A stretch of 64,000 nt of DNA, taken from IMG/VR virus record IMGVR_UViG_3300050139_000095, positions 64,001 to 128,000 of that record; one strand, 5' to 3'. This DNA is from a virus. Within the stretch, counting starts at the first letter, position 1. Every line of letters starts with the position of its first letter. Positions 13,951 to 57,835 of the stretch are shown here, one piece after another. The translations under genes were made by a program, and so were the position numbers. Under the pieces are notes generated by a model. That model made no database searches, was not told where the DNA came from, and saw only the letters and a list, made by a program, of their open reading frames with translations.

Positions 13951-14340
13951 GGGCCTGACATGGCTTCGACAGGGAACTGGACAGAGGATTTGCGTGCAGT
14001 GGTGGGCTGGCCACTTAAAAAGCCCAAATTGTATTCGGCAATAATATGCCCCTTCAGAACGTCGCCTAATAAGTGGCGGTCTGGATCAGCGCCTTCGGGC
14101 GCTGGCGGAGTCGCCGAGAACTCTGTAACGAAAGATCGGCAACACGGACAACCCGGCGTCCGGCTCGCAAGAGCGAATTAACGGGGAGTGCGCCGTGACT
14201 TATGGGAACGCGGTCGGTGGTGATGACAGCCGTAAAAATGTCTCGAAGACTTGCCGGTGGTCATGAAACTCCGGATACGCACGTAGAGATTCTTTCACAA
14301 GGTTCTTTGGACGAGGGTTCGATTCCCTCCAGGTCCACCA
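13951..14340 (+). ncRNA. ssrA: Transfer-messenger RNA
   Basis: One-piece tmRNA of 390 nt. The 5' end GGGCCTGACATGGCTTCGACAGGG and 3' end GAGGGTTCGATTCCCTCC-AGGTCC-ACCA fold into the tRNA-like domain. The acceptor pairs GGGCCTG with CAGGTCC and keeps the G3-U70 wobble required by alanyl-tRNA synthetase; CCA is encoded. The likely tag frame runs from GGC at 14037 to tandem stops at 14067-14072 and reads GNNMPLQNVA. tmRNA rescues stalled ribosomes and tags the nascent chain. The tag ends in VA rather than the common LAA. Confidence 0.92.
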
Positions 14341-14345
14341 TTTTT

Positions 14346-14435
14346 GGAAGAGTGTGTGAGCGGTTTAAACAGCCAGTCTTGAAAACTGGTAGACTCGAAA
14401 GAGTCTCGTAGGTTCAAATCCTACCTCTTCCGCCA
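14346..14435 (+). tRNA. tRNA-Ser (UGA)
   Basis: 90 nt including encoded CCA. The acceptor GGAAGAG pairs with CTCTTCC, the anticodon stem is CCAGT/ACTGG with loop CTTGAAA (anticodon TGA at 14380-14382), there is a long class II variable arm, and the T-arm is GTAGG-TTCAAAT-CCTAC. It reads UCA. It lies five bases after the tmRNA and is probably processed from the same transcript. Confidence 0.93.
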
Positions 14436-14446
14436 TGGCCTAATAA

Positions 14447-14496
14447 AGTAGGCCAGAGCGATGTGTCAGCGATCATTCTGGCCTACTATAGTAGGC
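14447..14496. repeat. Nested inverted repeats after tRNA-Ser
   Basis: AGTAGGCCAGA (14447-14457) and TCTGGCCTACT (14477-14487) are perfect 11-bp inverted arms around 19 bases. The right arm overlaps a second perfect 16-bp palindrome, GCCTACTATAGTAGGC (14481-14496). This may act as a processing or termination structure, or mark a recombination site next to the tRNA. Confidence 0.5.
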
Positions 14497-29338: not shown

Positions 29339-29612
29339 GTGGTACGTCGGAATCGGTTGGGCTTACGGATTGATTTGGTATGCGTTCTATAAACTGAACG
29401 GCCAGAAGTATCTCAATCGCGGGAAGGTTTCGATGGTGATCATCTTCGGATTTATCGGTTCGATCTTACTCTCGATTGATATTGTTCTCTTGTTCGTGCG
29501 GATCGTTTCAGGGATCTCGCTGTTCAATTGGGTTGTGATTAGAAAGATTAAAGTTCCCGAGACTTCTGGTCAGCGACATGGGGAGACGGTGCGACCGGAC
29601 GTAGTGCATTGA
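29322..29612 (+). CDS. Membrane protein
   Basis: 96 residues with two hydrophobic segments (YVGIGWAYGLIWYAFY and MVIIFGFIGSILLSIDIVLLF). The ATG at 29322 follows GGAGTGGAAA. Its last codons run into the structured RNA region. Confidence 0.5.
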   Translation: MLRVFEWYVGIGWAYGLIWYAFYKLNGQKYLNRGKVSMVIIFGFIGSILLSIDIVLLFVRIVSGISLFNWVVIRKIKVPETSGQRHGETVRPDVVH

Positions 29613-29832
29613 TCATGCACTCGACGGTTGCTGGGCACATGTACGGCGCAAGATATGGAGCCGGGGCCGCAAGGCAACGAGGCTTGGCCAAGTAGTGGGT
29701 GCGATCCCCACGGGAGATACGGCGCGGAAGCAACCATACGCACGTATCGACAGGAAGAGGTAACGCACTTCCTGACCAGGAGTTGAGGGATTTGTTAGCG
29801 TCATGTTCCCGTTAGTCAGATGTGTGACTAAC
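29603..29832 (+). ncRNA. Candidate structured RNA
   Basis: No gene fits 29613-29858, but helices are dense: AGTGCAT/ATGCACT (29603-29621); GGTTGCT (29626-29632) with AGCAACC (29729-29735) closing a 110-base multibranch unit that holds GTGGG-TGCGATC-CCCAC (29695-29711); CAGGAAG/CTTCCTG (29751-29774); GTTAGTCA/TGACTAAC (29811-29832). TACGGCGC is repeated at 29642 and 29718. The T-arm-like hairpin is not in tRNA spacing, and I do not recognise a known RNA family. It could be a free RNA or the leader of the MazG-like gene, whose ribosome site follows. Confidence 0.5.
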
Positions 29833-29858
29833 TGGAGGATGTGACTAGGAGTTGTTCG

Positions 29859-30554
29859 ATGTTAGATCCGATTGTTTTTAAGATTCTGAAGCCAGGCGGG
29901 AAGATCAAGTGCGACATCGACTTCGTGCCGTGGGACTTCGTTAAGGACTGCGAAGCGCAAGCGTGGATGAATCACCAACAGACTCTCAAGCGGCTCGATG
30001 AGCGCGGCGGCCTGTCGCCGGTCGAACTCTATGCGGTAAAGCATGGTCGCAGCGCGGCTTGGGTTATGTCTCGCGAGATGACTGAAGAGCAAGCGATCAT
30101 TTGGCTTGAGGTCGAACTCCATAAACTAGCTGGCCCCAAAAGTCTCCTGCAAAATATTACTGAGTTTCTGAAGGACAAGCCGACCGACGAGAAGATGGTG
30201 CGGGACAAGATCCCTGCCTTCAGCGCGGCAAAGAATGACGGCGGAGTGTTCCGCCACCCAAAGCATTTGCATGAGCGGTATCAATTCATCTGCATGAAAC
30301 TGTTGGAAGAGACGATGGAAGTAGTTTCAGAACTCGATTTGGCCAAACAGAAGACTCGGATGCCGGTGGTCAAGGTAGCCAAGGTGATCGAAGAGATCGG
30401 GGATCTCCTCGACGTGGTGGATATGATTTCCAAAAGCTTCGGCATTGATCCGAAGACAATAGAGGACCAAAGGATCTTGAAGCGCGAACGCAAGGGCGGC
30501 TTCGACGAAGAGTTCATCTGGGATATGAAAACTAGGGGGACTGTAAAATGTTAG
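29859..30554 (+). CDS. MazG-like NTP pyrophosphohydrolase fusion
   Basis: 231 residues. Residues 1-75 match a frequent phage domain (FVPWDFVKDCEAQAWMNHQQ, then RGGLSPVELYAV). Residues 110-230 form an all-alpha pyrophosphatase: MVRDKIPAF, KLLEETMEVVSE and VIEEIGDLLDVVDMI, with E-E-x-x-E and E-x-x-D metal ligands, ending RKGGFDEEFIWDM. The family removes aberrant nucleotides. TAGGAG at 29847 sets the ATG at 29859. Confidence 0.75.
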   Translation: MLDPIVFKILKPGGKIKCDIDFVPWDFVKDCEAQAWMNHQQTLKRLDERGGLSPVELYAVKHGRSAAWVMSREMTEEQAIIWLEVELHKLAGPKSLLQNITEFLKDKPTDEKMVRDKIPAFSAAKNDGGVFRHPKHLHERYQFICMKLLEETMEVVSELDLAKQKTRMPVVKVAKVIEEIGDLLDVVDMISKSFGIDPKTIEDQRILKRERKGGFDEEFIWDMKTRGTVKC

Positions 30555-30742
30555 TTCTTACCCGTGCTCTCGGTACATACATCAGCCTTGAAGGTGGGCG
30601 GATAAAGATCCAGTTGATTCAGATCAAGGGCAAGCAAGTCCGTCTCGGAATCATTTGTGATAGAGCAATCGACATCGCCCGGCTCGACAAGGACGGGCAG
30701 GTGGAAGACATCAAACCAAAAACTAAGGACGGTAATAAGTGA
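30548..30742 (+). CDS. csrA: CsrA/RsmA-like RNA-binding regulator
   Basis: 64 residues, the normal CsrA length. MLVLTRALGTYISL and IKIQLIQIKGKQVRLGIICD match the CsrA beta-strand pattern (MLVLTRKxGExIxI ... VRLGI). CsrA dimers bind GGA motifs in mRNA leaders and change translation or stability. A phage copy could remodel host carbon and virulence regulation or phage mRNAs (inference). The RNA-binding Arg in VRLG is kept; the usual 'IxAP' becomes IICD. It overlaps the MazG-like gene by seven bases. Confidence 0.8.
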   Translation: MLVLTRALGTYISLEGGRIKIQLIQIKGKQVRLGIICDRAIDIARLDKDGQVEDIKPKTKDGNK

Positions 30743-54996: not shown

Positions 54997-54999
54997 AAA

Positions 55000-55224
55000 G
55001 TGACCACCTACTGGGCGCACATCGTAAACATCCATTTGTCTGCGCCGGTTCCTAGCAATAAGAACTGGCGTGAGGTTATTCGCAAAGAGGACTTCGATGT
55101 TCACCAGGAAAGAGTCAACGTGCGCGAGCGCCGGTACATGGACATCGACCATGAAAACCGGACGCTCTCGGCGGAGATCCTGCTACTCAAATCCGAGATC
55201 AACCGACTAAAAAATACACGGTAA
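55000..55224 (+). CDS. Small coiled-coil protein
   Basis: 74 residues from GTG. C-terminal heptad-like helix (RTLSAEILLLKSEINRL). Unknown. Confidence 0.5.
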   Translation: MTTYWAHIVNIHLSAPVPSNKNWREVIRKEDFDVHQERVNVRERRYMDIDHENRTLSAEILLLKSEINRLKNTR

Positions 55225-55250
55225 GCAGATCATGGTTGCCATGGTGATCA

Positions 55251-55259
55251 TGATAAAAT
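55251..55259 (+). promoter_or_regulatory. Extended -10 promoter candidate
   Basis: TGATAAAAT: TG extension plus TAAAAT, 28 bases before the ATG at 55288, in a 63-base gap. Confidence 0.4.
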
Positions 55260-55287
55260 AATACCTCCAGAAACAAATGGAGGACCA

Positions 55288-57639: not shown

Positions 57640-57644
57640 TTGGA
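57631..57644. repeat. Palindrome TCCAATTGATTGGA, copy 10
   Basis: Exact copy; holds the TGA stop of the 57355 gene, as copy 2 does for another gene. Confidence 0.85.
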
Positions 57645-57652
57645 GAAGTCCA

Positions 57653-57733
57653 GTTCCGGAAATAAAACGGAACCTCTGTAATAATAAGATCCCAGCAATT
57701 TTATGAGGTTGCGCCGATATAAAAAGTAACCTC
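57653..57733 (+). promoter_or_regulatory. Leader with alternative hairpins
   Basis: GTTCCG/CGGAAC (57653-57673), then AACCTC (57671-57676), GAGGTT (57705-57710) and AACCTC (57728-57733). GAGGTT can pair with either AACCTC, and the first AACCTC overlaps CGGAAC, so the three helices compete. This is an attenuator-like layout in the 196-base gap before the fibre gene; no gene is seen there. Confidence 0.4.
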
Positions 57734-57761
57734 TAATAACCCCTAGTAAAAACGCCTGGTC

Positions 57762-57789
57762 GTGACCATTCAATTCTCATTGAGATAAT
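57762..57789 (+). promoter_or_regulatory. Promoter candidate for fibre gene
   Basis: GTGACC (57762-57767), 16-base spacer, GATAAT (57784-57789). If used, the transcript would start about 40 bases before the ATG at 57836 and skip the hairpin leader. Confidence 0.35.
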
Positions 57790-57835
57790 TTTGATCGGGC
57801 GTTACGATTGTGTGGATATATTGGTAGGGGGATGG

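Follow-up and report, generated by a model that had tools for sequence, protein, structure and literature searches.

A candidate structured 5′ leader upstream of overlapping mazG-like and csrA-like genes in a phage genome

The described systems closest to the locus reported here are the 5′ leader riboregulators, that is, riboswitches and protein-binding leaders, whose expression platform sequesters a Shine-Dalgarno sequence. The candidate resembles them in its computed architecture, in which a domain closed by a P1-type helix is followed by a hairpin and the Shine-Dalgarno sequence and in which one strand of the P1 helix is computed to be able to mask the Shine-Dalgarno sequence as well. It differs from the known 5′ leader riboregulators in having no Rfam match, no relatives, and no known ligand and in the intrinsic strength of its P1.

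The DNA analyzed here (the window, 64,000 nt) comprises bases 64001 to 128000 of a 160,330-base IMG/VR virus record. The major capsid protein of this phage is of the T4 gp23 type and shows ~30% identity to the capsids of cyanophages and other T4-like phages. Related IMG/VR contigs, with capsid identities of 41 to 87%, are mostly fragments, apart from the long contigs G005 (149 kb) and G007 (134 kb). The phage genome encodes a tmRNA, tRNA-Ser, and tRNA-Asn. The tmRNA is located at 13951-14435, with tRNA-Ser directly after it and then a strong hairpin at ~14447-14478. On the minus strand, a gene at 23897-24457 matches the nucleoside phosphorylase superfamily (PF01048, E=7.8e-10), and the surrounding genes are mostly on the plus strand.

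A preliminary description of the region, made from the sequence without database searches, had proposed a possible new structured RNA in a 246-base gene-free stretch. This stretch is in fact present at 29613-29858, between the end of a small upstream open reading frame (ORF) at 29612 and the ATG of the downstream gene at 29859, and contains no credible gene. All six frames of the gap had non-coding codon scores (-0.19 to -0.46, compared to a gene mean of +0.19). A hidden gene was rejected, as the ORFs of 52 to 63 aa present on both strands had non-coding codon scores and none of the ORFs in the gap matched a family above the cut-off. An origin acting at the DNA level was also rejected, as the site showed no GC-skew switch. 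When the boundaries were moved, a different fold largely displaced the helices of the preliminary description. The parts of the revised fold and the two genes downstream are as follows.

29555..29573, plus strand: P1 closing helix, 5′ strand (inverted repeat; pair probabilities ~1 for 29556-29571)
29591..29631, plus strand: hairpin P2 (pair probabilities ~0.9-1)
29632..29712, plus strand: central part, for which two or more folds are nearly equal in energy, one of them with a T-loop-like hairpin at 29695-29711 (comparison of minimum free energies)
29716..29748, plus strand: hairpin GATACG...CGTATC, which holds the second TACGGCGC (pair probabilities ~0.9-1)
29751..29774, plus strand: hairpin CAGGAAG...CTTCCTG, which partly competes with the inner end of P1 (probability ~0.8)
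29772..29790, plus strand: P1 closing helix, 3′ strand (inverted repeat), containing TGACCAGGAGTTG at 29773-29785
29801..29845, plus strand: stable hairpin just 5′ of the Shine-Dalgarno sequence (-23.7 kcal/mol; z -5.1 for 29796-29848)
29842..29854, plus strand: TGACTAGGAGTTG, a near-copy of the P1 3′ strand (direct repeat, 12/13)
29859..30554, plus strand: downstream gene, MazG-like (C-terminal PF03819, E=0.012, below the Pfam cut-off)
30548..30742, plus strand: gene of the CsrA family that overlaps the end of the preceding gene (PF02599, E=2.2e-10, passing the Pfam cut-off; CsrA-like in PHROG)

P1 is an inverted repeat of 19 nt (29555-29573 and 29772-29790, 17/19 paired) that closes a 236-nt domain, and it forms the near-certain elements of the fold together with the hairpins 29591-29631 and 29716-29748. 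The folded unit thus comprises 29555-29790 and the hairpin 29801-29845 and begins 48 nt upstream of the start reported before. At its 5′ strand, P1 extends into the final codons of the ORF upstream. The cumulative coding score of this ORF peaks at codon 29568, and its 19-codon tail scores -0.186, a value reached by only 0.5% of gene pieces. Because the coding signal is lost there, the non-coding element probably starts at ~29553-29571.

The segment folded previously, 29603-29848, has a folding z of only -2.2, which is mostly due to its last hairpin. The 8-bp hairpin reported before the MazG-like gene is the core of this much stronger hairpin, 29801-29845, whose energy is near the strongest 0.1% of the genome's 50-nt windows and which stops one base short of the Shine-Dalgarno sequence. 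As it lacks a T-run and is followed by TAGGAG, it is not an intrinsic terminator, and none was found on the plus strand. For the 7-bp closing stem assigned to 29626-29632 and 29729-29735, complementary arms exist, but their pairing probability within that segment is 0.0 because the 5′ strand sits in the near-certain hairpin 29591-29631; a 7-bp helix at comparable distance arises in 18% of shuffles. The GGTTGC formerly assigned to the closing stem lies within P2, as does the GTGCAT/ATGCAC hairpin. The T-loop-like hairpin 29695-29711 occurs in the sequence but belongs to an alternative fold (probability 0.2-0.3), the minimum free energy being -102.0 kcal/mol compared to -101.1 kcal/mol when this hairpin is enforced. 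The word TACGGCGC is found at 29642 and 29718 as described, but its repetition is not significant: the window holds 3 copies compared to 1.1 expected, and 11% of shuffles reach 3.

The domain 29553-29792 folds to -102.0 kcal/mol with a z of -4.5 to -4.9, and 0 of 200 shuffles were as good. Folding was better on the plus strand (z -4.9) than on the minus strand (z -3.8), which fits the expectation for an RNA because the helices use G-U pairs. Unselected 240-nt windows of the same genome have a mean z of -0.38 (sd 1.2). For a selection-matched background, the boundaries of each genome window were set by its best long-range helix, and 25 shuffles were used for each. The mean z was then -1.23 (sd 1.37); a z of -4.5 or lower was reached by 15 of 634 windows and one of -4 or lower by 27, and the target itself scored -3.9 in this run (25 shuffles). 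Once the choice of boundaries is matched in this way, the fold ranks only within the top 2-5% of genome windows. The P1 helix score was equaled in 0.2% of shuffles, compared to 1.9% of windows from the genome. In 23 other noncoding gaps, z was mostly near zero, two gaps having comparable values, and the known tmRNA of the phage reaches only -2.2. Since two other gaps score comparably and the tmRNA scores so low, z by itself cannot decide for or against an RNA at this locus, in line with a review according to which single-sequence structure prediction alone is no evidence of functional structure (PMC8250186). Two other long gaps left by a crude gene caller, 54997-55287 (z ~-4.7 to -5.9) and 57640-57835 (z ~-3.9 to -4.3), fold unusually well; the former may contain an uncalled gene end and a terminator.

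These background counts favor the explanation that the locus is ordinary spacer or decayed DNA, GC-rich and G-rich, that folds well by chance, as do the non-unique middle of the fold and the 11 longer gaps that the crude caller leaves in the genome (the largest being the tmRNA/tRNA gap). In that case at most the hairpin before the Shine-Dalgarno sequence would work, in mRNA stability or RNase processing. We regard this explanation as a real possibility, if a somewhat doubtful one: the near-zero z of most other gaps of the phage speaks against it, and a long closing helix together with a Shine-Dalgarno-matching repeat is unlikely in shuffles (0.2% and 1.75%, respectively). A structured RNA at this site is plausible, since non-coding DNA occurs here in a dense phage genome and since the G-U pairs of the long closing helix favor the plus strand as RNA.

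Searching 29400-30000 with Rfam release 15 (4227 models) yielded nothing at gathering score, in agreement with the earlier statement that the element fits no RNA family familiar to its author; relaxation to E<=10 gave only a meaningless microRNA match (mir-4477, E=5.2). Searches of IMG/VR, GTDB contigs, phages, plasmids, and the records of related phages revealed no homologue of the RNA. The matches obtained were all trivial or due to chance, whether by distant blastn searches against phages and plasmids, by scans of IMG/VR with the MazG-like protein, its alignment with the G005 relative, two neighboring proteins, the capsid protein (as a single sequence and as an alignment), and two DNA patterns derived from the RNA, by scans of GTDB contigs, by tblastn of the downstream genes, or by a covariance model (R1) run on 18 records and on 19 loci. 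Among all collections searched, the candidate RNA thus appears to be a singleton, which also favors chance folding. Two further leads were dropped. The record L004 has GTGGGTGCGATCCCCACGG and GCTGGGCACAT in common with the locus at similar spacing, but the rest does not align. In G005, the gap that follows the homologous gene has a z of -1.4 and no visible similarity. Several known RNA classes were set aside as well: group I introns (a weak likeness by eye, AAGATAT; Rfam silent, no downstream exon), self-cleaving ribozymes (Rfam silent), and Y RNA or YrlA with a Ro protein (Rfam silent; no TROVE-domain gene, PF05731, in the record).

The T-loop-like hairpin GTGGGTGCGATCCCCAC is also present in two unrelated large phages, at L003:9687-9703 (minus strand) and L006:2314-2330 (plus strand), in apparent tRNA genes with an unusual T-loop (TGCGATC). 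The 11-base word ATACGCACGTA is common to the candidate RNA (29736-29746) and the phage tmRNA (14275-14285), and its core, TACGCACGTA, has no other plus-strand occurrence in the record. The exact hairpin in apparent phage tRNA genes and the word common with the tmRNA, which is matched in 2.4% of shuffles, would fit a degenerate element derived from a tRNA, tmRNA, or intron with the T-loop hairpin as its relic. The likeness to tmRNA and tRNA is confined to that one hairpin and that one word; the candidate is not built like a tRNA, and neither ARAGORN nor any Rfam model recognizes anything at the locus. The T-arm, whose probability is only 0.2-0.27, is followed by neither an acceptor strand nor a CCA, and there is no exon downstream. 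Such an origin is very improbable.

The candidate RNA lies on the same strand as the overlapping mazG-like/csrA two-gene unit and immediately 5′ of it. The N-terminal domain of the MazG-like product shows 38% identity to a shorter protein of phage G005 over the N-terminal part. Alleles of csrA have been described in 30 of the 2517 phage genomes of one study (PMC7366521), and csrA-like genes are also present, in different places, in the related records G005 and G007. CsrB/RsmZ-type CsrA-sequestering RNAs come to mind, as the CsrA-family gene is ~750 nt downstream of the domain; the candidate differs from them in that its GGA and ANGGA motifs are not enriched and mostly lie in stems rather than loops. 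Its 240 nt contain 8 GGA triplets, a number equaled by 11.9% of genome windows and by 40% of mononucleotide shuffles. Because GGA is not enriched and most triplets are paired, a CsrA sponge of the CsrB/RsmZ type, which has many GGA in loops, was rejected. More generally, a trans-acting phage small RNA of ~236 nt, released from a transcript by processing and with P1 as its closing helix (for example, a regulator directed at the host or at CsrA), would agree with the compact multi-hairpin domain, its own end-to-end closing helix, and the CsrA-like gene nearby. At the locus the plus strand lacks promoter-like and terminator-like sites, the GGA distribution argues against a sponge, and the Shine-Dalgarno copy and the position suggest action in cis, so that we consider a small RNA unlikely.

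Of the explanations weighed, the best, which we put forward tentatively, is that about 29555-29845 on the plus strand forms a structured 5′ leader of the mazG-like and csrA genes. The leader would be transcribed from the plus strand as part of the mRNA and would control translation of the two overlapping genes, with the P1-closed domain followed by the stable hairpin directly 5′ of the Shine-Dalgarno sequence. A possible pairing switch is suggested by the 13-nt sequence TGACCAGGAGTTG, which recurs with one change as TGACTAGGAGTTG. These are the only two copies in the record, and a repeat of this kind was found in 1.75% of shuffles. Owing to this near-repeat, the 5′ strand of P1 should be able to pair with either copy, and the Shine-Dalgarno sequence AGGAG (29847-29851) lies within TGACTAGGAGTTG. 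The computed pairing energy of the P1 5′ strand is -30.9 kcal/mol with its P1 partner and -19.0 kcal/mol with the Shine-Dalgarno copy. In the free fold the Shine-Dalgarno sequence is partly open (0.19-0.65 unpaired), whereas blocking of the P1 3′ strand leaves it fully paired with the P1 5′ strand in the computation. Accordingly modeled, pairing of the P1 5′ strand with its own 3′ strand would keep the Shine-Dalgarno sequence partly free, its pairing with the near-identical copy would block it, and the stability of P1 would set the translation level. P1 is predicted to be a strong default that would not open unaided, because it is far more stable than the alternative. The gene-free stretch, the repeats, and the calculated folds with their energies are shown here; from them we infer transcription, the structure inside the cell, and the switch, which a putative ligand or protein, possibly the phage's own CsrA-like protein, might throw.

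In favor of the leader, we counted the non-coding scores in six frames and the loss of coding signal over the 5′ strand of P1, the z of the P1-closed domain and the better folding of the plus strand, the stable hairpin before the Shine-Dalgarno sequence, the unique 13-nt near-repeat and the masking obtained when the P1 3′ strand is blocked, and the position directly 5′ of a same-strand, overlapping two-gene unit. Counted against it were the lack of a homologue, the rank of the fold only in the top 2-5%, the 1.9% of genome windows with an equally good helix, the much greater stability of P1 than of the alternative pairing, the lack of a promoter-like site near the candidate leader on the plus strand, and the situation in G005, where neither the homologue of the N-terminal part of the downstream gene nor the csrA-like gene has such a gap upstream. 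That the locus represents a new class of phage riboswitch-like leader, with a ~236-nt closed domain, a P1 strand captured by a near-copy over the mazG-like/csrA Shine-Dalgarno sequence, and no relative in the public collections searched, seems quite improbable.

For now, the locus illustrates the limits of single-sequence folding, as the first fold was largely wrong and the improved one is only moderately unusual for the genome. Should the leader prove real, two phage genes with MazG-like and CsrA-like products, whose functions could alter nucleotide signaling and RNA regulation in the host, would be under the control of an orphan structured RNA.
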